Positions 1,409 to 21,561 of a stretch of DNA of 61,000 nucleotides are shown here, piece after piece. Each line of letters starts with the position of its first letter. Within the stretch, counting starts at the first letter, position 1. This stretch comes from Terriglobia bacterium (GTDB lineage: Bacteria > Acidobacteriota > Terriglobia > Acidiferrales > UBA7541). A model generated the notes under the pieces. The model was not told the origin of the DNA and did no database searches. It saw nothing but the letters and a program-made list of their open reading frames with translations. The stretch lies in assembly GCA_023512135.1 (NCBI GenBank), contig JAIMAG010000015.1, positions 1 to 61,000 of the forward strand, in the 5' to 3' direction. The position numbers were made by a program, and so were the translations under genes.

Positions 1409-1495
1409 TGGTGCGGAAGGGGGGAGTTGAACCCCCACGGCCTTGCGGCCACAGGATCCTAAGTCCTGCGCGTCTGCCCGTTCCGCCACTTCCGC
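1409..1495 (-). tRNA. tRNA-Leu (anticodon TAG), site of element integration
   Basis: On the minus strand a complete leucine tRNA can be folded. The acceptor stem GCGGAAG (1495-1489) pairs with CTTCCGC (1419-1413). The anticodon stem CAGGA/TCCTG surrounds the loop CTTAGGA, giving anticodon TAG. A long class II variable arm (GGCC GCAA GGCC) and a GGGGG/CCCCC T stem follow. The discriminator A and an encoded CCA end (1411-1409) are present. The 5' half, from the anticodon loop onward, lies inside the left direct repeat of the integrated element. This gene is therefore probably a hybrid of a chromosomal 3' half and an element-borne 5' half. Confidence 0.95.
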
Positions 1496-1647
1496 ATTGC
1501 TGCGTAACATCCTATCAGACAAGACCTTATATCACCACCGAAGTCGTTCGCCAGGATGTTCATTGTTTCTCAGTGTCAGTTTTGGTGCCAGTTGCATCTT
1601 GGCCTTGAGGCGCTACCAAGCGGTCTACGGCTTGCCGGACGTGCCCT
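1456..1647 (+). repeat. Left attachment-site repeat (attL region)
   Basis: This segment is repeated at 21382-21561 in the same orientation, with one mismatch in the tRNA D-loop (base 1479 region), a 12-base indel near 1572-1584 and a few other substitutions. It covers, left to right, the anticodon-loop-to-5'-end half of tRNA-Leu (1456-1495), the tRNA upstream region, and the 3' end of the integrase gene (1560-1647). The true recombination core is presumably within the tRNA part. Confidence 0.9.
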
Positions 1648-2690
1648 GGGGCCAAGTGAGCATACCGCATCACCATTTGCAGCGTCCTGTGCCCTAGCAA
1701 CTCGGCCACGGTCCGCAGATCAACCCCGGCCATTACCAAGCGCGAAGCGAAGCAGTGCCGCAGGTCATGCCAGACGAACCGACCGATGTCGGCCTTCTTG
1801 ACGGCGGCCTCGAACCATCGTTGCCAGTCGCGCTCACGCCCACGCGCCGTGCCGGGTACAACGTAACCTGAGCCGTCTTGCTGCGCGCGTAGTTTCTCAA
1901 GCGCCTTCCGGGCCACTTCGTTCAGCGGGATTGACCGCCTGTGGCCGTTTTTACTCTGCGCAATGTTCAGCAGCCCCAGTTTGAAGTCCACATGCTCCCA
2001 GCGCAGGCGGTATTGCTCGTTCCTCCGCATCCCTGTATGCAAGGCAAGATCGACCTCGGGCTCCCGCTCCGGAGCCAGCTCTCGAATCTTCTCACGGAGT
2101 TTCTGTTCCTGCTCAGCGTCCAGTAGGCGGACGCGCCCGCTGTTCTCCCGGCGACGGGCGACCTTGCGGATCGGGTTGTCGGCCAGCTTGCCGTTACGCA
2201 CCGCAATCCGATAGACGAAACTCAGGAGTGCCCTGTAGCGGTTGCACGTCGCTGGCGCCCATGCTTTCTCGGAAAACCTCGCTTCGATCTCCTGCGGCGT
2301 AATGGTTTCAGCGGTGCGAGAGCCAAACCATTTGATAAGGATTCCCATTCGGTACTCGTCGTCTCTATAGCTGCGCTTGTGCGCGCGCGAGTAGGCCAAC
2401 GCATCCTCGGCAATGCTTTTGAACGAAGGTAAGGGCTTGCGCAACGTCTCTGGTAGCTTACGCCCTTGAAGCACTTCGGTCTTTCGCTTCTGATACAACG
2501 TGATCGCAGCGCCCTTGCTCGGCGCACGTTCACGCCGGATGCGGCCTGTGGCGTCGGCGTACCTTATCCACCAGCGGCCCGACCCACGCGGCTTCTCGTA
2601 CACGCCGCGTTGTTTCTTCTCCTCACTTTGAGTCTTGGCTTTGCCCCGCTTGGGGATTTCTAGGACAACCGCCGTTGCCGTGCTCACCAT
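1560..2690 (-). CDS. int: Tyrosine recombinase/integrase of the element
   Basis: This 376-residue site-specific recombinase would catalyse integration into and excision from tRNA-Leu. All catalytic residues of the phage integrase family are visible: Arg222 (HTGMRRNE), Lys247 (QSKNG), His308-x-x-Arg311 (HDLRH), His334 (LLGHR) and the nucleophile Tyr343 (MRYAH). A core-binding helical domain precedes them (about 90-180), and the N-terminal 85 residues are basic and resemble an arm-binding domain. The stop codon lies 65 bases from the tRNA gene, the usual place for an integrase. The 3' end is copied in the right repeat. The start region overlaps the next minus-strand gene by 68 bases. Confidence 0.93.
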   Translation of the reverse strand: MVSTATAVVLEIPKRGKAKTQSEEKKQRGVYEKPRGSGRWWIRYADATGRIRRERAPSKGAAITLYQKRKTEVLQGRKLPETLRKPLPSFKSIAEDALAYSRAHKRSYRDDEYRMGILIKWFGSRTAETITPQEIEARFSEKAWAPATCNRYRALLSFVYRIAVRNGKLADNPIRKVARRRENSGRVRLLDAEQEQKLREKIRELAPEREPEVDLALHTGMRRNEQYRLRWEHVDFKLGLLNIAQSKNGHRRSIPLNEVARKALEKLRAQQDGSGYVVPGTARGRERDWQRWFEAAVKKADIGRFVWHDLRHCFASRLVMAGVDLRTVAELLGHRTLQMVMRYAHLAPGHVRQAVDRLVAPQGQDATGTKTDTEKQ

Positions 2691-6566: not shown

Positions 6567-6799
6567 TTCGGAGGTGGTCGCCGAGCAGGGAGCCGATCAG
6601 CTGGACGACGTGCTACCTCATCGAGAATCCGGCACGGATGGCGGAGATCGCCGCAGTGAAGCTGGCGCGCGAGCTGGCCGGAGTCGGATGCGGCTGCCAC
6701 TCGGTCGCTGAGCTTCAGGGCCTGCTGCGGGATTTGGGTGTTGAGGTCGAGATCGTCGAGGGAGAACCCGAGCATGGACGCAAAGGGATCGTCAACTAG
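6548..6799 (+). CDS. Small hypothetical protein in the early operon
   Basis: An 83-residue frame starts at ATG 6548 and overlaps the previous gene by 19 bases. It contains CGCHSVAELQGLLRDLGVEV, which echoes the end of the upstream protein (SSRELQDYLSQVGCVVEIEE). The two may share a small related domain after duplication. Function is unknown. Tight packing between coupled neighbours supports it being real. Confidence 0.5.
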   Translation: MPRRVVIRRWSPSREPISWTTCYLIENPARMAEIAAVKLARELAGVGCGCHSVAELQGLLRDLGVEVEIVEGEPEHGRKGIVN

Positions 6800-7799
6800 C
6801 CCCGCGCGCGACGCGCTGGAACTGCTGGGCAAGCCTTGGGGCATCGTGCCGGACGTGCTGCGGCACATCGAGCAGGTGGCCGATGCATATCTTCGCGGAG
6901 GTGCGTCGCTGCCCGAGGCGCGGCTGGTGCAAGCGCAGTCTGGCGGAGGCCGGGGCTTCGATCTGGTAAACGGCGTCGCGGTCATGCCCGTGACCGGCGT
7001 GTTAGTAAAGCGCTCGACGATTTTGGGTTTCTTCTTCGCCGAAGCGGTGACCGAATCGCTGGCCGCCGACTTCAAAGCCGCGCTGGCCGATCCCAAAGTC
7101 AACGCCGTCCTGCTGCACATTGACAGCCCGGGCGGAATGGTGGACGGGGTCGAATCGCTAGCCAGTCTGATTCACCGTGCGCGTGGCCGGAAGCCTGTGG
7201 TCACGTTGATTGACGGCTTGGGTGCGTCCGCCGCCTATTGGTTGGCCAGCGCCGCCGACCGTGTGTTCATCACCGGCGAGACAACGCAGGTGGGCAGCAT
7301 CGGCGTTGTAGCCACGCACATTGACCGCAGCAAGGCGGACGAACGGCGCGGCGTGAAGGTCACCGAGATTGTGGCTGGCCGGTACAAACGCGTCGCCAGT
7401 GAGCGCAGCCCGCTGAGCGACGAAGGCCGCGCCATGCTTCAGGACGTGGTGGATCGCATCTACAGCGTGTTTGCGCAGGCCGTGGCCCGGCATCGCCGGA
7501 TCGCTGTGGAGCACGTGGTCGCGACTGAGGGCCGCATATTCATCGGCAAGCAGGCCATTGAGGCCGGGCTGGTAGACGGCACGGCCACACTTGACCGCTT
7601 GCTCGAGGCACTTGCTCCGGGCGGCCCAGGGCTGTCCACCGCGAAGGCGGCAAAGCAGAGGGCTGTCCCTCCGCAGACCCATGAGGAAAGCACGCGACTC
7701 AGGGGGATCGAAAGGCTTGTGGCCAAGCATGGCCTCGACGCTGTCCGGCAGGCGATCCGCGAGCACCTGCAAGCGACGAGTTCTCTGTACAAGCCGTAG
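6774..7799 (+). CDS. S49-family serine peptidase (prohead protease/SppA-like)
   Basis: A 341-residue protein from ATG 6774, inside the end of the preceding gene. It shows the S49 core: HIDSPGGMVDG (residues 116-125), the nucleophile Ser152 in DGLGASAAYW, and a candidate general base Lys205 in AGRYKR after the motif VGSIGVV. No signal peptide or membrane segment is seen, unlike housekeeping SppA, and the size fits the lambda-C type capsid maturation proteases. In an element with no capsid gene it may process a helper-phage protein or act otherwise. The peptidase call is firm and the role is inferred. Confidence 0.85.
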   Translation: MDAKGSSTSPARDALELLGKPWGIVPDVLRHIEQVADAYLRGGASLPEARLVQAQSGGGRGFDLVNGVAVMPVTGVLVKRSTILGFFFAEAVTESLAADFKAALADPKVNAVLLHIDSPGGMVDGVESLASLIHRARGRKPVVTLIDGLGASAAYWLASAADRVFITGETTQVGSIGVVATHIDRSKADERRGVKVTEIVAGRYKRVASERSPLSDEGRAMLQDVVDRIYSVFAQAVARHRRIAVEHVVATEGRIFIGKQAIEAGLVDGTATLDRLLEALAPGGPGLSTAKAAKQRAVPPQTHEESTRLRGIERLVAKHGLDAVRQAIREHLQATSSLYKP

Positions 7800-7824
7800 A
7801 AAAACACACCCAAGGAGACGAGGA

Positions 7825-8670
7825 ATGTCCGTGGAACGGTTGAAGAAGGAAGTGAGCAAGTGGGAAGAACGGCTGAGCCAGCTACAACAGAAGGCCAGCC
7901 AGGAGATGGCCCGCGCCAACGCGCTCGAAACAGAGCGCCGGGCACTTGCGCTGGCCGCTGCGGATGGCGACGAGAAGTCCGAAAAGGCCATGAACCGCAA
8001 GGCCGCGGAAGCCGAAGAGGCCCGGCGTCAGTCGGACAACTTCGCACTGATGGCCCGCGAAGCCGAGAGAAACCTCGAATCGCTCCGCGACGAGCTGGCC
8101 GAAGCCGAGTCGCAGGCAGCACTTGATGTACTGCGCGAAGCCTCTGGGCAGCACAACCCAGCGAGGATCGAGCGAGTCGTGGCTGAGTTGGTTGAAGCGC
8201 TCCGCACGGCCAAGAGTTTCTCCGCACAGATTGCATTGCTCGCAGAAAGAGTCGGCGTCAACTTCGATGCGCGCAGCAACCTGTTCAAGCCTGCTGTGGC
8301 CTATGTTCTCTGGTCGCTCAAGCGCGAACTAAGCGAGTCGGATTTACTGGAGTGGTCATTCGCGCCGCGTGACCCCAAGGCGGAGCCTCAGGGTGCGCTC
8401 GTCCAGCATGAGCGCTGGTACGTGGAAGGTCTCGTGGCAGCCGCTGAGCGCAGTATCCAGGGGGCGAAGCTGGCGCGGGAACGTGCGCGGGGCCTGATTC
8501 GCGTGGAGGAGGGTGAGCAACTGTATCGCGCGCTGCATCGCCTCATCGGGGTGCGCGGGCTGAATCTTCAGCCTGGCGAACTGATCGCCCTACGCCCAGA
8601 CGAAGCAGAAGACCTCGCAGAAGCGGTCGAACTGACCGAAGGAGCGCCCGACCAGGCCCAAGTCGCGTAA
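7825..8670 (+). CDS. Coiled-coil protein of unknown function
   Basis: This protein has 281 residues, starting at ATG 7825 behind AAGGAGACGAGG. The first 110 residues are an almost unbroken Ala/Glu/Lys/Arg coiled coil. The second half is helical, with WSLKRELSESDLLEW and an acidic tail. It sits 25 bases after the S49 peptidase gene, where a scaffold-like protein lies in tailed phages, but no scaffold signature is recognised. Another possibility is a nucleoid or structural factor of the element. Confidence 0.6.
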   Translation: MSVERLKKEVSKWEERLSQLQQKASQEMARANALETERRALALAAADGDEKSEKAMNRKAAEAEEARRQSDNFALMAREAERNLESLRDELAEAESQAALDVLREASGQHNPARIERVVAELVEALRTAKSFSAQIALLAERVGVNFDARSNLFKPAVAYVLWSLKRELSESDLLEWSFAPRDPKAEPQGALVQHERWYVEGLVAAAERSIQGAKLARERARGLIRVEEGEQLYRALHRLIGVRGLNLQPGELIALRPDEAEDLAEAVELTEGAPDQAQVA

Positions 8671-8731
8671 GCGGGCACACAAAGCTGCAGACGCACACTG
8701 GGCAAGACGCTGTCGTTAGGGAGTGCCGTTT

Positions 8732-8759
8732 GGGGCGGTCATGGCTTCAAGGCCGCCCC
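8732..8759 (+). terminator. Hairpin after the early operon, possible terminator
   Basis: GGGGCGG (8732-8738) pairs with CCGCCCC (8753-8759) across a 14-base loop. It lies about 60 bases after the stop of the coiled-coil gene. There is no T run, so intrinsic termination is uncertain. Confidence 0.3.
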
Positions 8760-8769
8760 GCCGCGATGG

Positions 8770-9021
8770 GTGAATCACCACGGGGGAGTCAATGGTTACG
8801 ATCACCAATCGGGGAGCAGGCCCCGGCGGGACGTAAATGCAGAGGTCGTGGCCCAGCATCGCGTGGAAGGCAGGAGTTGGCGGGAGACTGCCCGGTTGCT
8901 GGACGCAGGATATGGAACTGTGCGCCGCGCCTACCACCAGCGAGCCAAAGCTGAGCCAAAAGCGTCTCTTCGGCCAGAAACGGACAACCCTGACCAGTCC
9001 ATAGACCGTGCGCTGGGCTGA
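8770..9021 (+). CDS. Small helix-turn-helix protein (resolvase-type HTH)
   Basis: An 83-residue frame from GTG 8770. The stretch EGRSWRETARLLDAGYGTVR (about 33-52) is an HTH of the kind found at the C-terminus of serine recombinases (sequence WREIARxLxVSxGTV). No recombinase catalytic domain is present, so this is either a free-standing HTH regulator or a remnant. The start is uncertain and the tail is low complexity. Confidence 0.45.
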   Translation: MNHHGGVNGYDHQSGSRPRRDVNAEVVAQHRVEGRSWRETARLLDAGYGTVRRAYHQRAKAEPKASLRPETDNPDQSIDRALG

Positions 9022-9201
9022 ACCCCGTTCTTCGGTCGGGGAAGTACGCCCGCATGTATGCTCAGGCTGGACCAACGGGTCCTGTCAGACCCCCTGCCAG
9101 TCGCGGGTGACGGCGGGCGCGGCCTCGCACCAGCGTATGAACGAAAATTTCGCCGTTTCGTTTCCGTTTCGTTTCGCTTTGGGCAGAAAGGAAGGCAGGG
9201 C

Positions 9202-9441
9202 GTGGCAAAGACCGTGAACGTCAGGGAGTTGGCCGCCTTGCTGGGTATCAGCCCTCGCCGGGTTCAGCAACTTGTCCGTCTTGGGATGCCGCGCGTCGCT
9301 CGCGGCAAGTACGATCCAAAAATCTGCCGCAAGTGGTACGAGTCCACCCCCTGGCGCAGGTGGGCGCGCGACCAGGCCAAACTGTCAGGAGTGATAGACG
9401 ACCTGCTTTCGAAGGTAGATCCTCCAGGTGGAGCGACGTAA
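9202..9441 (+). CDS. Nu1-like HTH protein, candidate small terminase
   Basis: A 79-residue protein from GTG 9202, preceded by AGGAAGG. NVRELAALLGISPRRVQQLV (residues 5-24) is a winged HTH like the N-terminus of the phage lambda Nu1 DNA-packaging subunit, followed by a PRVARGKYDP-type wing and an Arg/Trp-rich segment. In satellites a small terminase redirects a helper phage's packaging machinery. No large subunit is found here. A plain HTH regulator is the alternative. Confidence 0.6.
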   Translation: MAKTVNVRELAALLGISPRRVQQLVRLGMPRVARGKYDPKICRKWYESTPWRRWARDQAKLSGVIDDLLSKVDPPGGAT

Positions 9442-9509
9442 AGCAGCGTAGCTATGAAGTTACGGTTAGATACCTCAGGGTGTACAGCCAATGAGCCACT
9501 GGTGGTGAG

Positions 9510-10032
9510 CTAAATCTCTTGTGTCTGTGAATCAAGCCCTGAGGCGTAGCAGGGAATCAAGTTCACCAAGCACTCGGCGCTGGGCAAACGGCTCTTGGTT
9601 TTCACAAGTAGGGCCTTGAGCCGATCAGCGTATTTGAGGTAGATGGACTTTTTATATGCCTGGAGCCGCTTCCAGTCCTTGCCCTTCCCAACGTACATAC
9701 ACTTCTTGCAGTACCAGAAGGAGTACACAATTGGGCGCTTCAGCTTCTTTGCTGCCCATTCAACCAGCCGGTCGTATCGGTCATCAATACCGTGACCCTT
9801 GATAAATCTCAGAAGCCGCCGAGTGACAAGCTTACTGAGCTCGTGTTTTTGCTCGCTTCCGAACCAGAATCTGAGAAGCGGAGGACAGCATTTCCTCTTG
9901 CAACTTCGTCTTGACCCTCTTATTGAACTTCTTAGGAGGGCCTGGCTGCAGAATAATCAACCGCAACACACTGTCCATACGCCGGTTCATGGTTTTTTCG
10001 AGCGAGCGTCGGAACTGAGTTATGTAGGCCAC
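9510..10032 (-). pseudogene. Frameshifted GIY-YIG-like protein gene
   Basis: Read leftward from ATG 10032, the first frame gives a basic helical N-terminus and stops at 9832. After a +1 shift at a run of five A (9846-9850 on the plus strand) the frame continues to the stop at 9510 with HELSKLVTRRLLRFIKGHGI, then PIVYSFWYCKKCMYVGKGKD and WKRL. The VYSFWY-x5-MYVGKGKD-x-KRL pattern resembles the core of GIY-YIG nucleases. The joined protein would be about 173 residues. Removing one A restores a single frame, so this is either a real inactivating insertion, a phase-variable tract or a sequencing error. The GIY-YIG assignment is tentative. Confidence 0.55.
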
Positions 10033-10041
10033 GGACGCCTC

Positions 10042-12867
10042 CTACCCACTGTTGTGTTTCACCAGGACCTCGTGAATATCGCCGGGATGGCGCGAGACGG
10101 CGGCGACCCAGGTGCCGAAGCCGCCGTCTCCGTTAACTGCCCGAATCCATTCATCCAGGAATTCTCGCTTGGTCTGCTGCTCTTGGGTGTCCTGGCCTTT
10201 CACTTCAAGCACCAGCATCTTCCCGCTGGTCAACCGTACCAAGTAGTCGGGCCGAAACTTCCGGATCACGCCCTTATAGGAGTAGGTGATCTCGAATCCT
10301 AGGTGGTCATTCTTCACCCAGGCAGCCACGTTGGGATTGCGGTCTAACTCAAAGGCCTCGCTCGCTTCCCACGTGCTGTCGAACACGCACATATTGATGT
10401 GTGAGCGCTTCGTGTGCTCGCAGGGTTTGCCGGTGTACCACGGCAGCATGTCGCCTGTGGAGCGGACGGGCTTTTCGGTGTCGAACACGGGCTCCAGGGC
10501 CAGCGAGTTCTCGAAGCGAATCGCCTCCCACATGTGCTGGACGACCTTGCTCATGTTGAGCGTGATAACGATGCGCCGCCGCAGATCGTCTTCATGGAAC
10601 AGCGGCGGGTGGACCTGTATGTTCCCGCTCTCGATAAACCGTTCCACCAACCGAATCAACTGGGCCAGCAAGTACTCGCGGCTCCCCTTCCACGTGGGTT
10701 TCATCTGGTCATAGAGATCGCTGGCCGTGGCAAAGATGATTTTTTGCATCCGGAACTTCCGCCCCAATTCTTCCAGGCTGATCTCGGTCAGGCGCGTCAC
10801 GTCCGGTTTGCCGTCAATTACGGGAGCCAACTCGGCCAGCATCGCCGTGTCGTAGGCGTCCAGCACCAGGGGCTTGGTCTTCAGCGGGTCGAGTGTGAGC
10901 TGCGGTCGGTATTCGTGGTCGACGCGAATGACGTTCGGCCACGTGATTTCATACGCCGCCCGGCGCTCGGGCAGAGGTTCAATCCTCGTCTTCGGTGGAG
11001 GTGGGGGAGGGGGCGGCTCATCCGCCCCACCTTCATGCGGCAGGAACGTGAAGGGAACGCCGAAGATGTTCACGTACTCGGGCTTGAACAGTCCGGTTTT
11101 CTCGTCCACCTCGTAGGACATTCGCCGCAGGCCACGCCCGACAACCTGCTCGCAAAGAAGCTGCGAAGTGAACGCCCGCAGGCCCATGATGTGCGTGACA
11201 GTCTTGGCATCCCATCCTTCGGACAGCATCCCCACCGAGATGACCTTCTGAATCTGCTCGCCAAGCTGACCTTCCCGCCCGATGGTATCCACAGTCCGCC
11301 TCAGCAACTCCGCGTAATCTTTCTTCGAGAGCTTGGGGCGCTGTCCATTCCCGTTCTCGCCGTTTTCATCTTTGTTCTCGGCCTCCGCATACTCGATCTC
11401 GATGGGTTCCTCCCGCGCCTCGGCCTTTTCCAGCACCTTCGAGTCAATGTGCAGAATCTTGTCCGGCTGGGACAGTTCCTCGATGTGAATCTTGCCTTTC
11501 GCGAAGGCGTGCTGTACGCGCGCGGCCGTTTCGGTGCGGTTTGCAACAGTGATCATCACCGGCGGCGTCTTCAAGCCCGCTTCCTGCCACTTCTTGGCCG
11601 TCTCCAGCCAGTCTTTGCCCAAGAAGTAGTAGCCATTCACCACCAGGTCAGGCAGCGGTGTGTGCGGCTCCGCCTTGCGGTTTAGGTCGGACTTGACCTC
11701 AGGGTCCATATAGATGTGGTAGAAGCGCGACTTGTATTCGCTGGTCAGCTTGCCATCGTCCCGGATGACCACGCGGGGCGTTTTCACTAAGCCGGACTCA
11801 ATGGCGTCGTTCAGTCCGAAGTCGCTGACGATCCACCCGAACAGTGTTTCCTCACCGCTCTTGCGCCCCGTAGGAGCAAACGGGGTCGCCGTGAAGTCGA
11901 AGCAGGTCAGGATGCCGCGCGCGCGGTGGATGCGATCCAGCCCGCCGATCCACTTCGTGGCTTCTTCCAATTCTTCGCGGGAGACGCCGGGAATCCGCAC
12001 CTTGGGCGGCACGCGCCAGGCGTGGTGCGCTTCGTCGTTGATGACGACGATGTTCTGCGCCGAGGCCATCTCGCCTAGCACCTCGCGCACGTAAGCCTCG
12101 TCGCTTTTCGGTCCGCGCTTATCCACGCTGCGCTTCTTGCGAATCTGCTCCTCGGTTTCCCAATCCAGCTTGTGCCAGTTGTGCACGAGCACCCGGCACG
12201 TCTGCCCCTGCCGAAGTTTGTCTTCGAGCCCGGGCGGGACGAGCCGGAACTCGCTGTAGTAGTTGCCCGGTCTCCCCGGCACCAGGACTTCAAGCCTGTT
12301 TTTCACCGTCAGGCCCGGCGCAATCACCAGGATGTTTTTCGAGAACCGCTTGTCCTGCGGATAGGTGACCTTGTTCAGCACCTGCCACGCAATCAGCATG
12401 GCCATTGCGATGGTTTTGCCCGCGCCCGTGGCCATCTTCGCGCACAGCCGCGCGAACTCGCCGCCGTCGCCCGGAATCTCGATCCCCACGCGCTCCGACG
12501 CCGGCGCTTCCACCAGCCAGATCAGCGTCTCGATGGCCTCAAGCTGGCAGAAGAAGAGCCGCCGGTTGCTCTCGCGCTGTTCCGCGTCCCACCAGTGTTT
12601 CAGCAGCCGCTTGGTAATGCCGGTCGCGCCCGGATAGTCCGCTTCGCGCCAGGCTTTCACGCGGGGCCGAATTTTGTTGACCAGCGGCAGCTCAATGAAC
12701 TCGCCCGGATCGTCGAACGACTTGGAGGACTCCGAAGCGCGAACGTAACCCGCCGGTCGGCGGCCTGGCTTGCGGATGAACTCGCGCCTCTCGCGGTTGT
12801 AGCTCCAGTATTCCGCCGGCTCCTGGTAGGGAGAGTTAAGAATCAGTTGGTCTATCGTCTTGGGCAT
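10042..12867 (-). CDS. Restriction helicase-nuclease, BPTD_3080-like (type III Res-like)
   Basis: A 941-residue DEAD/DEAH helicase with a C-terminal nuclease. Visible motifs are Walker A MATGAGKT (145-152), DEAH (278-281), FTATPF, SEGWDAKTVTHI (motif V) and VVGRGLRRM (motif VI). A C-terminal PD-(D/E)xK site follows: FRPDYLV with Asp874, then LVLEVKG with Glu888 and Lys890. This is the layout of type III restriction subunits and of the family named for BPTD_3080. It lies two bases downstream of the methyltransferase gene, so the two form one operon. A proline run (eight Pro) sits between helicase and C-terminal parts. It should cut unmethylated foreign DNA after ATP-driven translocation. Confidence 0.9.
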   Translation of the reverse strand: MPKTIDQLILNSPYQEPAEYWSYNRERREFIRKPGRRPAGYVRASESSKSFDDPGEFIELPLVNKIRPRVKAWREADYPGATGITKRLLKHWWDAEQRESNRRLFFCQLEAIETLIWLVEAPASERVGIEIPGDGGEFARLCAKMATGAGKTIAMAMLIAWQVLNKVTYPQDKRFSKNILVIAPGLTVKNRLEVLVPGRPGNYYSEFRLVPPGLEDKLRQGQTCRVLVHNWHKLDWETEEQIRKKRSVDKRGPKSDEAYVREVLGEMASAQNIVVINDEAHHAWRVPPKVRIPGVSREELEEATKWIGGLDRIHRARGILTCFDFTATPFAPTGRKSGEETLFGWIVSDFGLNDAIESGLVKTPRVVIRDDGKLTSEYKSRFYHIYMDPEVKSDLNRKAEPHTPLPDLVVNGYYFLGKDWLETAKKWQEAGLKTPPVMITVANRTETAARVQHAFAKGKIHIEELSQPDKILHIDSKVLEKAEAREEPIEIEYAEAENKDENGENGNGQRPKLSKKDYAELLRRTVDTIGREGQLGEQIQKVISVGMLSEGWDAKTVTHIMGLRAFTSQLLCEQVVGRGLRRMSYEVDEKTGLFKPEYVNIFGVPFTFLPHEGGADEPPPPPPPPKTRIEPLPERRAAYEITWPNVIRVDHEYRPQLTLDPLKTKPLVLDAYDTAMLAELAPVIDGKPDVTRLTEISLEELGRKFRMQKIIFATASDLYDQMKPTWKGSREYLLAQLIRLVERFIESGNIQVHPPLFHEDDLRRRIVITLNMSKVVQHMWEAIRFENSLALEPVFDTEKPVRSTGDMLPWYTGKPCEHTKRSHINMCVFDSTWEASEAFELDRNPNVAAWVKNDHLGFEITYSYKGVIRKFRPDYLVRLTSGKMLVLEVKGQDTQEQQTKREFLDEWIRAVNGDGGFGTWVAAVSRHPGDIHEVLVKHNSG

Positions 12868-12869
12868 GG

Positions 12870-15383
12870 CTACCGGAGGTCCACCACCTTCAGGCTCTCG
12901 ATGCCCCGGTCGTCTATCACCTTGACGGCCACGCGCTTGTTCGGCCCCGGCTCGAAAGGCAGCGAGACGGTGCCGCGATATGCTTCGATCAGTTCGGGAT
13001 CAATCTCCGCCTTCAGGTTGCGCGCCAGTCTGGCCCAGCCTTCGTCATCGCCGGCCATCGGGAAGAACACCTGCCGGGCGTAAAGGCTGCGGCCGTCGTA
13101 GTCGGTATCCAGCAGCCACATGGCGATTTTCGAGGTGTCGCCGGATTCAATCGTGCCGGTGCGCGTGTTGTAATAATCGAATCCGCGCACCTCGACCTGC
13201 CACTTTCCCTTGTGCTCGCCGGACTTCACCTGCCGCAAATCCACGTCCGGGCGGCCCACCAGCCAGAAGCTCTGATTGCTGGTGCGCTTCTTCTTCAGGT
13301 CTTCAGTCAGCAGGTCAGCGTTCATTTTGGCGGTCAGGAAGGTCATGCCGGTTTTTTCTTTGGTCAGCTCGTCAATGTCCTTGGCCGCTTCCGGGTCGAA
13401 CTCGAAGGCAGCGAAGACGATGATTGCAGGCTTGGGGATGAGCGTGCGCGCCTCTTCCCAGGCGAGTTCCACCTGGCGCTGTTCGAGAAGGCCGTGCTCG
13501 GGGCCGAAAGAGATGACCACACGCTCCGGCTTCGCGCCTTTGGTTTCGGCGTCGGCGTGCAGCCAGCGCGTGCCGCCCAGGGGTTCGACGCGCGAGAAGT
13601 GGATCATCTGCCCGCCCTTGCCCCGGATGCCGGTCTTAAGTAGTTCATCGCGCCACTCGGAATGGCGCAGCGTCGCGCCCTTGCGCGCCACAGAAGCATC
13701 GGCAGGCATTGTGGGCTTGTCGGCTTCGATGTCTTCCAGCGAACGTACCGTCGGCGCGGGCACGGCCTCCACCGTGAACGGGCCGGTCACGCGCACGCGT
13801 TTCTTATCCACGTAGGGCTGGTCGTAGAGGGTTTCCTGGTCGGCGTATTTGGCGATGGCCGCGTCAATTTGTTCGCGGGTCATCCCCTCGCGGATTTCAG
13901 GATTGTTGGCGATGGATTTCAGCGTGACGTGGGGCACAGTTTTGTAACGGAAGCCGCTGCCCACGCCTTCCTCTGGGTGCGCCAGCTCGTAGTAGTCATA
14001 GACGGCCGTCATTAGCCGCTGCTTGGCCAGCGCGATGGCCACACGAGATGTATCGCACGTAATCCAGCGGCGGCCCCACTGCTCGGCCACGAAAGCGGTC
14101 GTGCCAGAACCGCACGTTGGGTCGAACACGAGGTCACCAGGGTCCGTGGTCATCAGCATCGCTCGCTTGATGGCCTCAGTACTCGTTTGCACAGCATAGA
14201 CCTTCTCTTTGCTGAAAGTAGATATGATGGTGCCCCACCATACATTGTCCATCTCGGTGTACTCAAAGTCCTCCGGGAACCGTTTGCCGTATTTCCCAGA
14301 CTCTACAAGACGTCCCGCCAAGCGAAGCCTCACATAGCCCTCGGGGTCGTTATCCTTGTCGATCTGCGCGGCCTTATATCGGCGACCACCAGGGCCAACA
14401 TTATTGAAGGTTCCTTCTATCTCCTCATCTGTTCGCTCTCGATACAAGGGCCTGAACTTCAGGGAGTCGGTCTTGCCATACCAAACGAGAAAATCATACA
14501 AACGCTGAATCCTTTTTGCATTCTGATTGGTTGCAGTCTTATATGAAATCAAGGCTACGAAATTCTTGGAACCGAACACTTCAGACATGACGTGCCGCAC
14601 TAGATGGACGTTTTCGTCGTTGATCTGCACAAAACAAGAGCCGGATTCATGAAGCAATTCGCGGGCGAGCAACAGACGGTCGCGCAGGTAGGTCAAGTAG
14701 GAGTGGATGCCCAGTTCCCACGTGTCGCGGAAGGCGCGGATCATCTCGGGCTCAGCGGTCAGGTCTTCGTCTTTGCCGTCCTTCACGTCGCGCTTGTTCA
14801 CGAACGGCTGGAAGTTCGAGCTGTACTTGATACCGTAGGGCGGGTCTATGTAAACCATCTGCACCTGCCCGGCCATGCCTTCCTTTTCCAGCAGCGAGTT
14901 CATCACCAGCAGGGAATCCCCGGCAATCAATCGGTTCGACCAGCCATGCGCGTGCCTGTAGAAGTCAATCGCATCACGCAGCGGCAGTTTCTCCTCGGGC
15001 CGCTCAAAAAGCGACGGCTGCACCGGCTGGCCATTGCCGTTGCGTTTGCGGACCGCTTCAATGATCGTGCGCGGGTCAATCCGCTCGTGGACGTGGAGCG
15101 AAACAGTCGGCACTTCGAATGAGGTGTGCTCCTTTTTCCCCGCCCACACAAGCTGCGGATCCAGGTGCGGGTCGTAATCAAGGTCTTTGCCAGGCCGCAC
15201 CGATGGCACCGGTAGATGGTATTCATACGTCTTGTGAGTCGGCGCGGGCGGGTCTGTCTCCGGCGTCACCAACCCCACCGGTGGGTTGTTGACGCGCTTC
15301 TTATCCGTGTGCTCGTACCGCTCAATCGCCCGCTTCCTGCCCGCCCCGCTCCGCTTGCCTCCCTTCCCTTTTCCTCTCGCCAT
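12870..15383 (-). CDS. Site-specific adenine DNA methyltransferase (type III Mod-like)
   Basis: An 837-residue methyltransferase protecting host DNA. The beta-class order is clear: catalytic motif DPPY at 180-183 first, then the AdoMet-binding motif DPTCGSGTTA at 421-430. The region between them and the long C-terminal half (about 450-837) probably hold target recognition and the contact with the nuclease. The N-terminal 20 residues are very basic (GKGGKRSGAGRKRA). The frame is open up to 15557, but a promoter at 15426-15454 and AGAGGT before ATG 15383 favour the shorter start. It is the first gene of the operon with the helicase-nuclease and divergent from the HEPN gene. Confidence 0.92.
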   Translation of the reverse strand: MARGKGKGGKRSGAGRKRAIERYEHTDKKRVNNPPVGLVTPETDPPAPTHKTYEYHLPVPSVRPGKDLDYDPHLDPQLVWAGKKEHTSFEVPTVSLHVHERIDPRTIIEAVRKRNGNGQPVQPSLFERPEEKLPLRDAIDFYRHAHGWSNRLIAGDSLLVMNSLLEKEGMAGQVQMVYIDPPYGIKYSSNFQPFVNKRDVKDGKDEDLTAEPEMIRAFRDTWELGIHSYLTYLRDRLLLARELLHESGSCFVQINDENVHLVRHVMSEVFGSKNFVALISYKTATNQNAKRIQRLYDFLVWYGKTDSLKFRPLYRERTDEEIEGTFNNVGPGGRRYKAAQIDKDNDPEGYVRLRLAGRLVESGKYGKRFPEDFEYTEMDNVWWGTIISTFSKEKVYAVQTSTEAIKRAMLMTTDPGDLVFDPTCGSGTTAFVAEQWGRRWITCDTSRVAIALAKQRLMTAVYDYYELAHPEEGVGSGFRYKTVPHVTLKSIANNPEIREGMTREQIDAAIAKYADQETLYDQPYVDKKRVRVTGPFTVEAVPAPTVRSLEDIEADKPTMPADASVARKGATLRHSEWRDELLKTGIRGKGGQMIHFSRVEPLGGTRWLHADAETKGAKPERVVISFGPEHGLLEQRQVELAWEEARTLIPKPAIIVFAAFEFDPEAAKDIDELTKEKTGMTFLTAKMNADLLTEDLKKKRTSNQSFWLVGRPDVDLRQVKSGEHKGKWQVEVRGFDYYNTRTGTIESGDTSKIAMWLLDTDYDGRSLYARQVFFPMAGDDEGWARLARNLKAEIDPELIEAYRGTVSLPFEPGPNKRVAVKVIDDRGIESLKVVDLR

Positions 15384-15425
15384 CTTGGGCTTACCTCTGC
15401 GTAACTGTGGTTTCCCGGCTGCCAG

Positions 15426-15454
15426 ATTGTATTCTCTGACCCGAGGGAAGCCAA
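15426..15454 (-). promoter_or_regulatory. Promoter of the restriction-modification operon
   Basis: On the minus strand TTGGCT (15449-15454) and TACAAT (15426-15431) are separated by 17 bases. They lie 42 bases before the chosen methyltransferase start. The position inside the longer open frame argues against the upstream start. Confidence 0.55.
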
Positions 15455-15532
15455 CAGGTTTGCAAAGTGGTGGATATGTTAGAGTAAGAATGACCGCCCG
15501 GGTCGCGACCGTCGGCTTGTTGGAGGTCGTAT

Positions 15533-16333
15533 ATGCACTGGATTCGTGATTTCTCACACCGAGAAGGTCACATACCGTCAGTTAGAAACGTAGAAGATGC
15601 TCCGCAGCCCATGCGTCAAGAGTTGGTGGATGTTTTCTTCAGTGTTGCTGAGCAGAATCCTGGAATCATCCAAGAGGAACGTATCCACAGGGTGATCTGC
15701 CAAAGTTTGGGCGTCGGCGCGTCCGCTAATCCCTACGGCGGCTACCGGTATGCTGCTGGACGGGACATCCGGGGGGTTGGCTGGCAAAGGGTATATGACC
15801 TCATTGTCCGGTTATGGCCAGAATTTGAAAGGGCTGGCCTGAGTGATCAATTCCGCGATGGCGTGAACCGCGTGCTCGCCGCCCACGATTCGGCATGGGA
15901 CTTGGGCGCAGACGGCCGTTTGTATCGGGTGCTGCCAGCGCCAGCGCAGGCGCAGGTCGTTGCAGCCGTCGCGGAGCTTGCCAATCCGAGATACGCCCCC
16001 GCTGCGGCTCTGTTCAACACCGCCAGGGACGCTTACGATGACAGGCCCCGCCGCGACCGTGACGCGTGCGCGAACGCTTTCGACGCGATGGAGTCAGTAG
16101 CCAAGGAAAAGTACGGGTTGCCCAACGCTACCTTCGGGCAGGTTGTGGCTCATATCCGGCAAGGTCAGGCGTTGAATGAGCAGATCGTTGGCGTTCTCGA
16201 AGCACTCAACACTCTGCGGAACAGGAATTTCGGGCACGGGATGGCAGCACCGTTCGCGCTCAGTACAGCCGAAGTTGACTTCACTTACCTTGCCTGCATC
16301 GGAGGGATTTTGCTGCTTACCCGGACTCCATAA
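15533..16333 (+). CDS. HEPN-type protein, abortive-infection C-terminal-like
   Basis: This protein has 266 residues, starting at ATG 15533 behind GGAGGT. The C-terminal half (about 165-260) contains the pattern DACANAFDAMESVAKEKYG and then TLRNRNFGHG, which gives R-x5-H. That is the HEPN ribonuclease signature, and the surrounding layout is like the Abi C-terminal domain of abortive infection proteins. The N-terminal half (PGIIQEERIHRVICQSLG) is not recognised. The gene is divergent from the restriction operon within a run of defence genes. The role is inferred: RNA cleavage on infection. Confidence 0.68.
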   Translation: MHWIRDFSHREGHIPSVRNVEDAPQPMRQELVDVFFSVAEQNPGIIQEERIHRVICQSLGVGASANPYGGYRYAAGRDIRGVGWQRVYDLIVRLWPEFERAGLSDQFRDGVNRVLAAHDSAWDLGADGRLYRVLPAPAQAQVVAAVAELANPRYAPAAALFNTARDAYDDRPRRDRDACANAFDAMESVAKEKYGLPNATFGQVVAHIRQGQALNEQIVGVLEALNTLRNRNFGHGMAAPFALSTAEVDFTYLACIGGILLLTRTP

Positions 16334-16355: not shown

Positions 16356-17064
16356 ATGGGCCGCCGTGAAGAAACGATCCGTCGCACGCAGCAGAGGGTA
16401 AGCGATCTAATACAAGGCTTCGACGCGTACTGCGATTTCTTCGACGGTGCCAGCCTGTTTACAGGGCAAGCCTCTACTTTCATTTCGAAACCCTCAAGCT
16501 CTTGCGGGCTCACAGTTCAGTCGCTGACGCAATCCGAAATGAGGCGTTTTTGGAATCACTGTATGCCACGCTAACCACCTGGGGCTGCATCGCATGGGGC
16601 CAGGATCAACAAAGCTAGTTGAATTCTCCGAACTGGTTGCCAGCTTCAAGGCAGCAGAGGAGCAGATTGAAAATCTCTCTTCCTTGACGATCTGGACTCT
16701 CAGCCCTGACCAGATTGGTTCCGCAAGTGAGAGCATCTGGGACGTGATCTCTGCGCTGAGAGTTGGGATCGGAGAAACCAAGATCGTTTCGGGTTCCAAA
16801 GCCCTCCATCACGTCTTGCCCGAGCTGGTCCTGCCGATTGACCGCGAATATACCGTCGGTTTTTTCTTTCACAGCACGAACCTCTACCAAGGTGACCATG
16901 CGGCCTTGCTCGAAATGGTCCCGCACTTCCATCGAATCGCCGTGGAGTGCCGCAGCAAGATTGAGTGTCGCTTTGGGCGAGGGATGAACATGAACTCGTC
17001 GAAGGTTACGGACAACGCGATTGTGGGTTTGATGAAGAAAGAGGCTGATGCAAAGCCAGAGTGA
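16356..17064 (+). pseudogene. Conserved-looking gene broken by two single-base deletions
   Basis: Three successive frames read as one protein: MGRREETIRRTQQRVSDLIQ from 16356, then ASLYFHFETLKLLRAH after a lost base near 16467 (GGG-CA-AGC, probably once GGG-CCA-AGC), then HRMGPGSTKLVEF after a lost base near 16586 (GGC-TG-CAT, probably once GGC-ATG-CAT). The last part contains SKALHHVLPELVLPIDREYT. Restoring the two bases gives 236 residues. From memory, archaeal and bacterial proteins of unknown function share the SLYFH, MGPG and PIDREYT motifs, which I cannot confirm here. Either the gene is dead or the assembly has two errors. Confidence 0.7.
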
Positions 17065-17074
17065 GGCCAGTTCC

Positions 17075-17449
17075 TTACAGGGCTCGCCATCTCTCGTACA
17101 GATTTATCGTCGCTGGCCGAGAGATGTATTTCACGGGGCGCGTGTGCCTTATGAACCTTCCCTGGGCCAACTCAAAGACCGGCTTTCCAATCTTCAGCGC
17201 GTGATTCACCTCTTTTCCGACGCCGGCGGTTACCTTGCCCAGCAGACGGCTGAAGACGACGATGTCGCAGCCCTCAATAAGCCGCAGACAGAATCTGACG
17301 CCATTCCTTCTCTTGTCGGGATGGCCATCGTAGTCGGCGGGGTTGACGATCCTGCTGCCGCGAAACTTCCGCTTGATCTGGGCCAACTCCTGGTGCTCTT
17401 CCGGCTCACCGTACAGGCACATAGCGTGAGCGTAGTAGACTTTCTTCAT
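17075..17449 (-). CDS. Nucleoside 2-deoxyribosyltransferase/SLOG-like small protein
   Basis: A 124-residue protein from ATG 17449, divergent from the STAND nuclease gene. The fold suggested by MKKVYYAHAMCLYG (first strand and loop), IVNPADYDGH, EGCDIVVFSRLLG and GVGKEVNHALKIGKPVFEL is a Rossmann-like nucleotide-binding domain. The order is that of nucleoside 2-deoxyribosyltransferases, DUF4406 and the SLOG group. The glutamate in GVGKEVNHA would be the catalytic residue in the transferase family. Such domains act in nucleotide-signal or NAD-depleting defence systems, but this function is only inferred. Confidence 0.6.
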   Translation of the reverse strand: MKKVYYAHAMCLYGEPEEHQELAQIKRKFRGSRIVNPADYDGHPDKRRNGVRFCLRLIEGCDIVVFSRLLGKVTAGVGKEVNHALKIGKPVFELAQGRFIRHTRPVKYISRPATINLYERWRAL

Positions 17450-17542
17450 GTCGAGAGGCTCAAGTCAAAGTGTAGCATAGGGCGGTATTTCACGGAGCCG
17501 GGCGCTGAGTAAGAAAGCTCCGTTAAACCGGGAGCATTCAAC

Positions 17543-20500
17543 ATGTCATTTGTTGGGTTGGTCATAGGCAGCGATGTTGAGCAACTTGGGGCAGAAGCGT
17601 TACGCAAGGTGTTGAACACGCTGGTCGTGGCGGAGGCCACTGCCGCTGGGTGCCCCCTAGGAAATGTTGACATTTCGGCGCGGGATAACGACCCTGACGG
17701 GGGCGTTGACGCACGAATTCGCTGGCCCGCAGGCTCGCCACACGACATCCTCCCCGACGGAGAAACTGCGCTCCAGTACAAGTCTGGAAAGCTAACCAAA
17801 AGACTGTTGACCGATGAGTTCAACAAGCGCGGCGTCCAGGAGACGCTGAAGCGCGGCGGCAGCTACCTGCTATTGGTTGGCCACGACTACGTACCTCGAC
17901 AAGCAGACAAGTGGAGAGCAGAGCTCAAGAAGCTATGCCGGAAAAAGCGGATCAAGGCAGGCCGGTGCAAGGTACTTTTCGGAAGTCAGATCGCTAGATG
18001 GATTTGCCGACACCCGGCAGTCGTTATCATGCCGGAACTGCGGAAGGACTTCCCCGGTTTCGTTACTGTGAGCCGGTGGCTCCTGCATCCACAACTTCAG
18101 AACCCGTGGAAGCCTGACGCCCAGCGGGCGGAGTTGATCGAGAGAATTCGTTCATTCCTCCGAGGGGAGCTCCACGTCAGCGTGATTCGAGTCCAAGGCC
18201 AGGCAGGCATCGGCAAGACCCGCATGGTGCTTGAAGCCGTCAAGGAGCAAGGAATTGCGGAGCGTGTCGTTTATACCCCCAATGGTGACGACCAAAACGT
18301 GACGGATTTTCTGGCCCGCGCACAAGCTGCACCTACGGTGGGCGCGATTGCCGTGGTGGACGAGTGCGACCGTGATCGGCAGGAAACACTGAAGGCATAT
18401 GCTGATCTATCTGAGGGCAGGTTGAAGCTGATCTGTATAGGAACTGCGGACTTGCTTTCGCCGGGTGCCCCTGAGCTGTCGAACACCTGGGCGATGGCTC
18501 CCCTTTCCGATGAAAAGGTAAGAGAGGTCGTGAACGATGCAATTGGAACTGCTCCAAAGGAGCTTGTGGACACGGCTGTTCGCCTTGCAAGCGGGTTCGT
18601 CAAGCTCGCAATCTTCGTGGCCACACACCTGAAGCGCCAATCCAATATCCCGGCTGTAGAACTTGCAAGGATCGACGATGTAAAGCATTTCCTGAAGAGC
18701 TTTGTTGACGATAGGACGCGCCGAGCCTTGCAGGTCTTTTCGGTACTCTCCCAAGTTGGCTGGGAGGAAGCGCTCGTCCAAGAGGCCGAAGCTATCGCCA
18801 ACTTTCTGGCAGTCCCTCTCCCGGAATTACGTGCGTCAGTGAGAGCCCTTCGTGATCGGGGAATCCTCATCCCGCGAGGTCGGTATCTATATGTGTCTCC
18901 GGAACTGCTAGCCATTTCAGCCGCCGCTGAACTCTGGGATGAATGGGGGCCTGATCTCATCAAGATTGTTGATAGCCTGCCGGGACCAAAGCCTAGGCGC
19001 GAACTCCTCAAGCGAATGGCTGCAATGGGGGAACACGCGCGAGTTCGCCAAGCCGTGGAAAGTCTTCTCGATGAAGATGGTCTGTTTAAGACCCTGGCTG
19101 ACCTGGATGACGAGTTCCGCAGTGAGATGCTCAGGATTCTGAGTTCTGCCGTTCCTGGGAAGGCTGCGGAGGTGTTGGAAAGGATCATCGCCAAAGGTTC
19201 GAAAGATGAGTTGCTGGGTTTTGAGCGAGGCCGCCGCAATGTCATGTGGACTATCGAGACGCTCGTGCGGTGGCCAGAGACATCTCTTTCGGCGGCTCGA
19301 TCTCTGCGGGCCCTCGCACTGGCGGAAAACGAGAACATCGGAAACAACGCCACAGGAATCTTCTGCCAGTTTTTTCACATGTACCTCAGCGGCTCCCCAC
19401 TTCCATTGCTCGAACGCCTCACCTTGGTTGATGAGCTTCTCGAATCGCCGGATGAGAACAGCCGCATTCTGGCCGTGAAGGCATTGACCGCCGGTCTCCA
19501 GCATCATGAATCAAGGATGGGTGGCGAAGTCGATCATCTCTCAGGTAGACCCTACACACCGGAGTGGCGCCCTAAGACATATGGGGAACTGTGGGAAGCA
19601 CGTCGTGCGGTTCTCAACCGCCTTCGGTTGGTTGCCGGAGGTGATGACACGGTTGCTGCGGAAGCGCGCAAGGCCCTCGTCGGCTCAGTATTCACATTGA
19701 TTCGGGATGGCCTGTGGGTTGATGGGATCAACTTCCTGGAAGAGTTACAGCCGCAAGACGATGAAGAGCGACGACAGATTTTGGAGGCGATTAATCGAAT
19801 TGAGAGAGACGTCGGTGAGCGTCTGTCGGAAGAAGAGAAGCAGCGCCTAAAAACCCTTTCCGGACAGGTCTTTGACAACAGCTTTTCGAACAGGTTGCGT
19901 CGCTGGGTTGGCCGTCGATTGCACTCCGACTACGATCTGGTGGGGAAAACAGGCTATCAAGCCGCGGACCGCGAAGCTGCAAAGTTGGCAGAGGAAGCTG
20001 TGGAGGCTGGTATTTCCGACTCCGATCTGGCATGGCTGGCCTCGCCTGAAGCTCAGCATGTTTGGGCGTTCGGGCGTAGGCTGGGCGAGTGCGATCGGGA
20101 TTCCGCTTTACTTGACCGGATAGTCTCGGCGTCGACGGACGACGTGAACTGTGTGCTCCTAGCGTCCTATCTTAACGGCCAGGCGGGCGAAAAGGGGGAG
20201 GGGTTCCGGGAAGACATGCTCGACAGGCTGGCCTCTTCCCGTCCTTTGCTTGCTTTTGCCAGCACGTGGCGGGGGAGTGCCTCCGCCAGGGGCCTTGATA
20301 GGATTCTTCGCCTTGTTAATCAGGGATCGGTTCCACCTGAAATGCTAGGCTTTCTAAGCTATGGAGGATGGACAAATTCGCTTTCGTCTGAAGAAGTCAT
20401 CCGGTTACTGGAGGCCCTTCTCAAGGGTGAACCAAACAAGGTCCTTGATCCAACCCTGAGGATTCTACTTGCGCTAATTCAGAGAGAACCAGAATCGCTG

Positions 20501-21163
20501 GAGAAACTAAGGCCGCTGATCTGGAAAGTTCTTGAGATGAAGCCACGTAGACAATGGGACTTGGAATGGGGCCAGTTGGCCGAGCGGATGGTGAGGGAGG
20601 ATCCAGAAAGGATGGCGCGGATTGTGCTGTCCTTTTTTCAGGACGAAGATTTTCTGCCCATCCAAGGAGACACGACCATACAGGCGCTCGCGACCGCGAC
20701 GCAAAAAGAACCCGGGAAGTGTTGGGAGTTGGTTGGGGCAGCCCTACTTGATGAAGGCGAGGCGCATCGGGGATTCAGATTGAGCCTCGCCATCAAAGGT
20801 TGGTACGTTGAACTCATACCGAGCGACATCTTGATATCTTGGGCCAGGAACCATTTGCCTCGTGGGCCTTCCATCGTAGCTGACCTAGTGATCGCAAGGG
20901 CAGCCCCCATGCCCGAGCGAGCGCGAGCCGTTCTCATAAGCTTTCCGGATGACGAAAGGGTGAAGTCTCGGATTGCAGGCAACCTCAGATCAGGCCTCTC
21001 CGTGGGCCCATATTCGAATCGGCTTAAGAGCGACCTGGAGATAGCGAAGGGTTGGGCTCACGATCCACACCCGAGGATTCGCGCGTTCGCAGTCGAAGTA
21101 ATCAAACAGCTCGAAGCGGAACTGTTAAGGCACCTGATTATCGAACAGGAGGAGGAGCTTTAG
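17543..21163 (+). CDS. Mrr-like nuclease fused to STAND-type NTPase with helical repeats (Avs-like)
   Basis: A single 1206-residue frame from ATG 17543 behind GGGAGC. Residues 1-170 look like a restriction-endonuclease fold: GGVDARI with Asp56 and ALQYKSGK with Gln78-x-Lys80, the Q-x-K variant typical of Mrr-type nucleases. A P-loop GQAGIGKT (219-226) and Walker B AIAVVDECD (268-276) follow, then a winged-helix-like region (about 380-470). More than 700 residues of helical repeats follow, with no other catalytic motif. The order nuclease, STAND ATPase, repeat sensor is that of Avs antiphage proteins, though it is shorter than most. It probably oligomerises on sensing a phage protein and degrades DNA. 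This is inferred from architecture. Confidence 0.75.
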   Translation: MSFVGLVIGSDVEQLGAEALRKVLNTLVVAEATAAGCPLGNVDISARDNDPDGGVDARIRWPAGSPHDILPDGETALQYKSGKLTKRLLTDEFNKRGVQETLKRGGSYLLLVGHDYVPRQADKWRAELKKLCRKKRIKAGRCKVLFGSQIARWICRHPAVVIMPELRKDFPGFVTVSRWLLHPQLQNPWKPDAQRAELIERIRSFLRGELHVSVIRVQGQAGIGKTRMVLEAVKEQGIAERVVYTPNGDDQNVTDFLARAQAAPTVGAIAVVDECDRDRQETLKAYADLSEGRLKLICIGTADLLSPGAPELSNTWAMAPLSDEKVREVVNDAIGTAPKELVDTAVRLASGFVKLAIFVATHLKRQSNIPAVELARIDDVKHFLKSFVDDRTRRALQVFSVLSQVGWEEALVQEAEAIANFLAVPLPELRASVRALRDRGILIPRGRYLYVSPELLAISAAAELWDEWGPDLIKIVDSLPGPKPRRELLKRMAAMGEHARVRQAVESLLDEDGLFKTLADLDDEFRSEMLRILSSAVPGKAAEVLERIIAKGSKDELLGFERGRRNVMWTIETLVRWPETSLSAARSLRALALAENENIGNNATGIFCQFFHMYLSGSPLPLLERLTLVDELLESPDENSRILAVKALTAGLQHHESRMGGEVDHLSGRPYTPEWRPKTYGELWEARRAVLNRLRLVAGGDDTVAAEARKALVGSVFTLIRDGLWVDGINFLEELQPQDDEERRQILEAINRIERDVGERLSEEEKQRLKTLSGQVFDNSFSNRLRRWVGRRLHSDYDLVGKTGYQAADREAAKLAEEAVEAGISDSDLAWLASPEAQHVWAFGRRLGECDRDSALLDRIVSASTDDVNCVLLASYLNGQAGEKGEGFREDMLDRLASSRPLLAFASTWRGSASARGLDRILRLVNQGSVPPEMLGFLSYGGWTNSLSSEEVIRLLEALLKGEPNKVLDPTLRILLALIQREPESLEKLRPLIWKVLEMKPRRQWDLEWGQLAERMVREDPERMARIVLSFFQDEDFLPIQGDTTIQALATATQKEPGKCWELVGAALLDEGEAHRGFRLSLAIKGWYVELIPSDILISWARNHLPRGPSIVADLVIARAAPMPERARAVLISFPDDERVKSRIAGNLRSGLSVGPYSNRLKSDLEIAKGWAHDPHPRIRAFAVEVIKQLEAELLRHLIIEQEEEL

Positions 21164-21381: not shown

Positions 21382-21561
21382 ATCCTAAGTCCTGCGCGTC
21401 TGCCAGTTCCGCCACTTCCGCATTGCTGCGTAACATCCTATCAGACAAGACCTTATATCACCACCGAAGTCGTTCGCCAGGATGTTCATTGTTTCTCGGT
21501 GCCAGTTGCATCTTGGCCTTGAGGCGCTACCAAGCGGTCTACGGATTGCCGGACGTGCCCT
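21382..21561 (+). repeat. Right attachment-site repeat (attR region) with tRNA-Leu 5' fragment
   Basis: Direct copy of 1456-1647. It holds only the 5' half of a tRNA-Leu gene (to base 21421 or so). The variable arm, T arm and 3' acceptor strand are absent to its left, so this copy is not a working tRNA. Its D-loop reads AACTGGCAGAC, as in typical leucine tRNAs, while the intact gene at the left reads AACGGGCAGAC. Confidence 0.88.
21486..21561 (-). pseudogene. Integrase C-terminal remnant
   Basis: Reading leftward, 21561-21486 encodes HVRQSVDRLVAPQGQDATGT, then EKQ and a stop. This is nearly the same as the last residues of the intact integrase at 1560-1647, with one substitution (Ala to Ser) and four residues missing through a 12-base deletion. 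The catalytic region is absent. It lies outside the element on the chromosomal side, so it is the trace of another related element once inserted here. Confidence 0.85.

Follow-up and report, generated by a model that had tools for sequence, protein, structure and literature searches.

The window analysed here, a stretch of 61,000 nucleotides from the contig JAIMAG010000015.1 of a Terriglobia bacterium, contains an intact open reading frame with an ATG start coding for a protein of 1206 amino acids. The gene product is probably a bacterial immune receptor in which a domain that cuts DNA is followed by an ATP switch and an extended helical sensor. The gene lies just inside the right end of an about 20-kb integrative element (window positions 1456-21497), which is inserted at a tRNA-Leu gene and flanked by att-like direct repeats (Table 1).

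Table 1. Positions in the window of the integrative element, its genes and the parts of the STAND-nuclease gene
Feature	Position	Strand	Evidence or remark
tRNA-Leu, integration site	1409-1495	-	
att-like direct repeat, left copy	1456-1571		115/116 identical to 21382-21497; overlaps tRNA-Leu
Tyrosine integrase of the element	1563-2690	-	PF00589 E 4e-32; phrog_1 E 1e-61
Primase-like protein of the element	3859-6120		
λ gpC-like head maturation protease of the element	6738-7796		
359-aa ORF at the place expected for the capsid gene	7591-8667		no match
Small-terminase-like HTH protein of the element	9058-9441		
BPTD_3080-family restriction endonuclease, defence cargo	10042-12867	-	NF046055 1108 bits, cut-off 800
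Type III-like DNA methyltransferase, defence cargo	12870-15557	-	PADLOC MTase_III E 9e-146
AbiJ_NTD4-like protein, defence candidate	15533-16333	+	PDC-S32 E 4e-11; PF18863 just below cut-off
Small nucleoside 2-deoxyribosyltransferase-like protein	17075-17449	opposite to STAND gene	adjoining the STAND gene; phrog_355 E 5e-8
STAND-nuclease gene, 1206 aa, solo PD-λ-4A relative	17543-21163	+	ORF, PADLOC PD-Lambda-4_A match, fold model
N-terminal PD-(D/E)xK nuclease domain, residues 1-170	17543-18052	+	model pLDDT 92.3; best matches Avs4 nuclease, Can2, EcoT38I, BspD6I, FokI
Catalytic residues D56 to K80 (Q-x-K)	17708-17782	+	D56, Q78, K80 invariant in 55-sequence nuclease alignment
STAND/AAA-type nucleotide-binding domain, residues 193-385	18119-18697	+	profile matches, fold model
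Walker A GQAGIGKT, residues 219-226	18197-18220	+	consensus in 78/80 homologues
Walker B AIAVVDECD, residues 268-276	18344-18370	+	D/E at position 273 (the aspartate) in 80/80 homologues
Winged-helix region, residues 386-480, β-hairpin 442-451	18698-18982	+	model secondary structure
C-terminal HEAT-like helical solenoid, putative sensor, residues 481-1206	18983-21160	+	all-helical model; PP2A scaffold matches
Family signature patch RR...AENE-x3-NNAT...G-S/T...R, residues 564-625	19232-19417	+	best-conserved block outside catalytic motifs
att-like direct repeat, right copy	21382-21497		about 220 bp past STAND gene end

The element has the appearance of a (capsid-forming) phage satellite or of a prophage remnant carrying defence cargo in a genome of acidobacterial type. 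The STAND gene is cargo of this phage-satellite-like element, together with the restriction-modification and AbiJ-like genes. The G+C content is 56-57% across 14-22 kb and 61-69% beyond the right end of the element. A search for the empty integration site found trigger factor and tRNA-Leu close together in two relatives, in which the right flank is absent. Phage satellites and prophages are known to harbour defence genes (PMC9122126).

In the PADLOC search the single strong family for the 1206-aa protein was PD-Lambda-4_A (PDLC03991, E 1.7e-34), with residues 9-716 of 1206 aligned to positions 8-745 of 1283. Neither NCBIfam nor Pfam gave a match above the cut-off, the Pfam hits being sub-threshold AAA matches only, and a PDB search with the single sequence matched no chain. 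PD-λ-4 came out of a selection for fosmids that protect against phage (Vassallo et al. 2022, PMC9519451). The E. coli locus of the founding type codes for a 1283-aa protein that fits PDLC03991 over its full length; the next gene codes for 248 aa and matches PD-Lambda-4_B. BLASTP aligned our protein with E. coli PD-λ-4A over 753 columns including the nuclease motif (E 9e-22, 21% identity). The two proteins are of similar length and have in common a D-G-G-x-D...Q-x-K nuclease domain, a STAND ATPase and the beginning of the helical region. As the match ends at residue 716, the remaining sensor, comprising the final 490 residues, is without counterpart in the PD-λ-4A model. In a quick tree of the shared core the 1206-aa protein falls outside the E. 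coli/Enterobacter clade (SH-aLRT 100), its own deep position being weakly supported (60-80).

The preliminary description of this DNA had placed a nuclease motif at Asp56 and Gln78-x-Lys80. The residues D56 and Q78-Y79-K80 are indeed present and are conserved among homologues: D52, G54, D56, Q78 and K80 are all found in 69 of the 80 full-length homologues, which is the unselected count; the members of the 55-sequence alignment of Table 1 were picked for the motif. The secondary structure elements follow the order α-β-β-β-α-β, with E31 in the first long helix, then D56 and Q78-x-K80, i.e. the arrangement of the PD-(D/E)xK core. A model of residues 1-187 gave Foldseek E-values above 0.1. With a structural aligner the best match was residues 2-175 of Avs4 (Z 9.6, 3.1 Å over 135 residues), followed by Can2, EcoT38I, BspD6I, MspJI and FokI. 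Because the Avs4 nuclease, Can2 and restriction endonucleases are all among these matches, the nuclease fold predicted for the N-terminus is well supported by the model. The label Mrr-type, which the domain had also been given, is not supported: the Q-x-K motif is there, yet no Mrr model was among the matches listed (25 of 28 families) when 55 homologous N-termini were scanned with Pfam at E up to 1.

The P-loop and the Walker B motif are located where they had been proposed (Table 1). The best solved sequences for the family profile were PH0952, NRC1, ADR1, Apaf-1 and Sr35, and also RFC. In the structural comparison the ATPase region (about residues 181-476) matched NRC4, NRC3, NRC2, ZAR1 and Apaf-1 at Z about 10-11, RFC and Cdc6 scoring equally; the matches to Apaf-1 and the NRC proteins reach residue 470-510. 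Both Walker motifs and an NLR-like nucleotide-binding domain with a winged-helix fold are thus present. The STAND GxP position reads G351-F-V353 here and is G-x-P in 65 of 80 relatives. According to the profile matches and the fold model the ATPase is STAND-like, with an NLR-type nucleotide-binding domain and a winged helix. Neither of the two outcomes named beforehand as refuting the preliminary description, an ATPase outside STAND or an N-terminus lacking a nuclease fold, was observed. The plant and animal NLR/Apaf-1 proteins (NRC2-4, ZAR1, Apaf-1, CED-4) have the same ATPase and winged-helix fold but differ from our protein in their effectors and sensors.

The part behind residue 480, about 725-730 residues, is all-helical in the predicted model, in agreement with the helical repeats of about 730 residues claimed earlier (about 727 by our count). 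PP2A scaffold proteins matched this solenoid at Z about 11, which is weak for helical repeats. The signature patch is situated near the solenoid start, behind the ATPase and the winged helix. As the 135 loci discussed below were chosen via the AENE-x3-NN motif, the conservation of the patch was re-examined on 14 homologues outside that selection. In these, E595 and A592 never vary, and N602, A603, L615, G617 and R625 are almost as constant. The patch may be a structural or signalling hinge common to all members, in which case reading of the trigger would fall to the C-terminal part, which varies more; the patch could equally be a ligand site.

The known PD-λ-4 system has two genes. The PD-λ-4B model (PDLC03992), which does recognise the B gene of E. 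coli, found no match in the whole genome of our bacterium, and a blastp search with E. coli PD-λ-4B in about 95 loci returned no copy besides E. coli's own. Across about 80 relatives there is no recurrent neighbour; the largest common neighbour family comprises 5 loci. The neighbourhoods contain diverse defence families, none of them recurrent in a raw tally. From the missing PD-λ-4B and the lack of a recurrent neighbour it follows that the family mostly lives as single genes. A Rugamonas contig (L063) carries two family members, at 16488-19481 and 7908-11816, about 5 kb apart. Since the second gene of the known system is absent here, it is conceivable that the protein, being solo, does not function.

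These data also bear on a second explanation, in which the gene does not stand alone but acts jointly with the restriction-modification system or the AbiJ-like gene of the element. The two-gene organisation in E. coli and the other defence genes directly upstream would fit such a role. However, no neighbour is conserved in the relatives, and the gene at 17075-17449 on the opposite strand separates the STAND gene from the defence genes. We consider joint action unlikely.

The protein had been called Avs-like, and the other alternative to be weighed is that it is a true Avs member of the Avs4 type that senses portal or terminase proteins of phages by the recognition mode already solved. A full model (residues 1-1196, 59 sequences, mean pLDDT 88.6, pTM 0.71) had Avs3 (PDB 8dgc, E 8.7e-9) as its first and Avs4 (PDB 8dgf, E 1.9e-8) as its second Foldseek match, followed by human SAMD9 and other helical-repeat proteins. 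As in Avs1-Avs5, a single chain combines an N-terminal effector, a STAND ATPase and a C-terminal helical sensor. Avs4 (AVAST type 4) has the same order of domains, and it is also Avs4 to which the N-terminus comes closest, both having a Q-x-K nuclease. The TM-scores of the Avs3 and Avs4 alignments are low, for the about 2000 residues long Avs3 0.10-0.14, as is expected with a flexible solenoid; they indicate an architecture in common and not a superposition of the structures.

The sequence comparisons argue against membership in Avs. No Avs1-5 model matched the 1206-aa protein, either in PADLOC (E up to 10) or in NCBIfam (E up to 1). In the positive control, NF041815 (Avs4) detected an Avs4 protein of the same phylum (locus L115) with 1588 bits, above the cut-off, and PADLOC assigned this protein to Avs4 with E 0. 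NF041815 found no match in the genome of our bacterium. NF041814, the Avs5 model, gave elsewhere only weak sub-cut-off matches. A profile-profile comparison with Avs4 (hhalign) aligned the P-loop alone, at a probability of 3%, and left the nuclease unaligned; an Avs4 profile of only 3 sequences makes this a weak test. Moreover, Avs4 is about 370 residues longer, and the AENE-x3-NNAT patch defines the PD-λ-4A-like family, unlike Avs4. An Avs4-type receptor is therefore improbable. The term Avs-like stands for the architecture and the fold but not for sequence membership, the family being PD-Lambda-4_A, which the preliminary description did not name. Its statement that characterised Avs proteins mostly carry other effector domains is wrong for Avs1-4, which have nuclease effectors (PMC12931631). 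That the protein forms a branch of its own, which may respond to a new trigger, as had been suggested, is possible. Judged by its sequence, the gene product is distantly related to PD-λ-4A, an anti-phage protein of E. coli, but has no partner gene, and it is not a member of Avs1-5, which it resembles in shape. It represents a known kind of protein, a STAND nuclease receptor related to PD-λ-4A, in a divergent, partnerless form of which we found no description.

Exact peptide patterns taken from the 1206-aa protein recover no relative because they are not conserved. A single signature pattern derived from the alignment, AENE-x3-NN, identified 135 loci in bacteria and archaea represented by one genome per species. 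With our own genome counted, a family member is present in 2 of 61 close genomes and in 8 of 396 across the phylum. Members are found on 34 plasmids, whose hosts range from haloarchaea to Rhizobium and Enterobacter, and on 5 viral or prophage contigs; none was found in phage records. The family is thus broad, comprising bacteria and archaea, and patchy, and such a patchy spread would be expected of defence genes that move horizontally. On a plasmid of the haloarchaeon Haloarcula marina (L011:4950-8748) the same protein is encoded by two overlapping ORFs, one for nuclease and ATPase (353 aa) and one for the helical sensor (914 aa).

The location on mobile elements would also suit a regulator or an anti-plasmid device whose nuclease limits competing mobile elements, the relatives residing on plasmids and prophage or viral contigs and our own copy on a satellite-like element, but the E. 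coli relative was, per its name and the naming scheme, selected against λvir (Vassallo et al. 2022, PMC9519451), and we regard this explanation as very improbable.

The strict set of nuclease residues is missing in 11 of the 80 full-length relatives. One of them (L079) is a variant nuclease in which E replaces D56. In seven Bacteroidota proteins (L060, L069, L076, L082, L083, L092, L096) a TIR-like N-terminus (MKIKIFYSWQ...) takes the place of the nuclease; when four of these were scanned, two matched CAP12-PCTIR_TIR at E about 0.001, below the cut-off. Two further relatives have an α/β-hydrolase and one a membrane segment. On the quick tree, built from the shared core, the effector labels call for at least four changes, the TIR-like domain arising once, the α/β-hydrolase twice and the membrane segment once. 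The sequences thus indicate that a conserved ATPase/sensor core exchanges nuclease, TIR-like, α/β-hydrolase and membrane effectors. Avs and other STAND immune receptors are likewise known to combine a conserved core with effectors that can be swapped. On the Enterobacter roggenkampii plasmid pYK16-mcr-10 (L015:4035-8156) a DUF676-like serine esterase replaces the nuclease of a PD-λ-4A relative.

Taken together, the PD-Lambda-4_A match, the nuclease and STAND folds, the exchange of effectors, the patchy spread, the defence neighbours and the att-bounded integrase element make it likely that the gene codes by itself for an anti-phage receptor that belongs by sequence to the PD-λ-4A family and works like Avs or an NLR. 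By analogy it would most likely be a solo sensor that kills infected cells through DNA cleavage. In the resting state the STAND ATPase would keep the protein inactive. A phage product would bind to the C-terminal helical solenoid, whereupon ATP binding would lead the STAND modules to oligomerise and the oligomer would bring the N-terminal PD-(D/E)xK domains together. The assembled nuclease domains would then cut DNA of both host and phage, and either the infected cell would die or the phage DNA would be lost. For oligomerisation, trigger binding, DNA cleavage and abortive infection the models are the Avs and NLR proteins.

A wider reading, which we put forward tentatively and hold to be less likely than not, is that the PD-λ-4A-like proteins form a separate pan-prokaryotic class of one-gene STAND pattern-recognition receptors. 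Their nuclease, TIR, hydrolase and membrane effectors would be interchangeable, and the receptors would sense, with involvement of the AENE-x3-NNAT helical patch, a conserved product of phage or infection that is neither terminase nor portal.

In the review PMC10952713 PD-λ-4 is entered solely as a P-loop NTPase system, and in the open-access literature we found no mechanistic study of it. Defence annotation that demands the PD-λ-4B gene would overlook solo members such as the gene described here. Placing E. coli PD-λ-4, so far catalogued as a P-loop protein, as a branch of a large family of single-gene STAND receptors would provide it with a testable mechanism. Viewed as a STAND receptor with exchangeable effectors, PD-λ-4 comes with predictions for active-site mutants, and the conserved sensor patch would offer a focused target for trigger screens.
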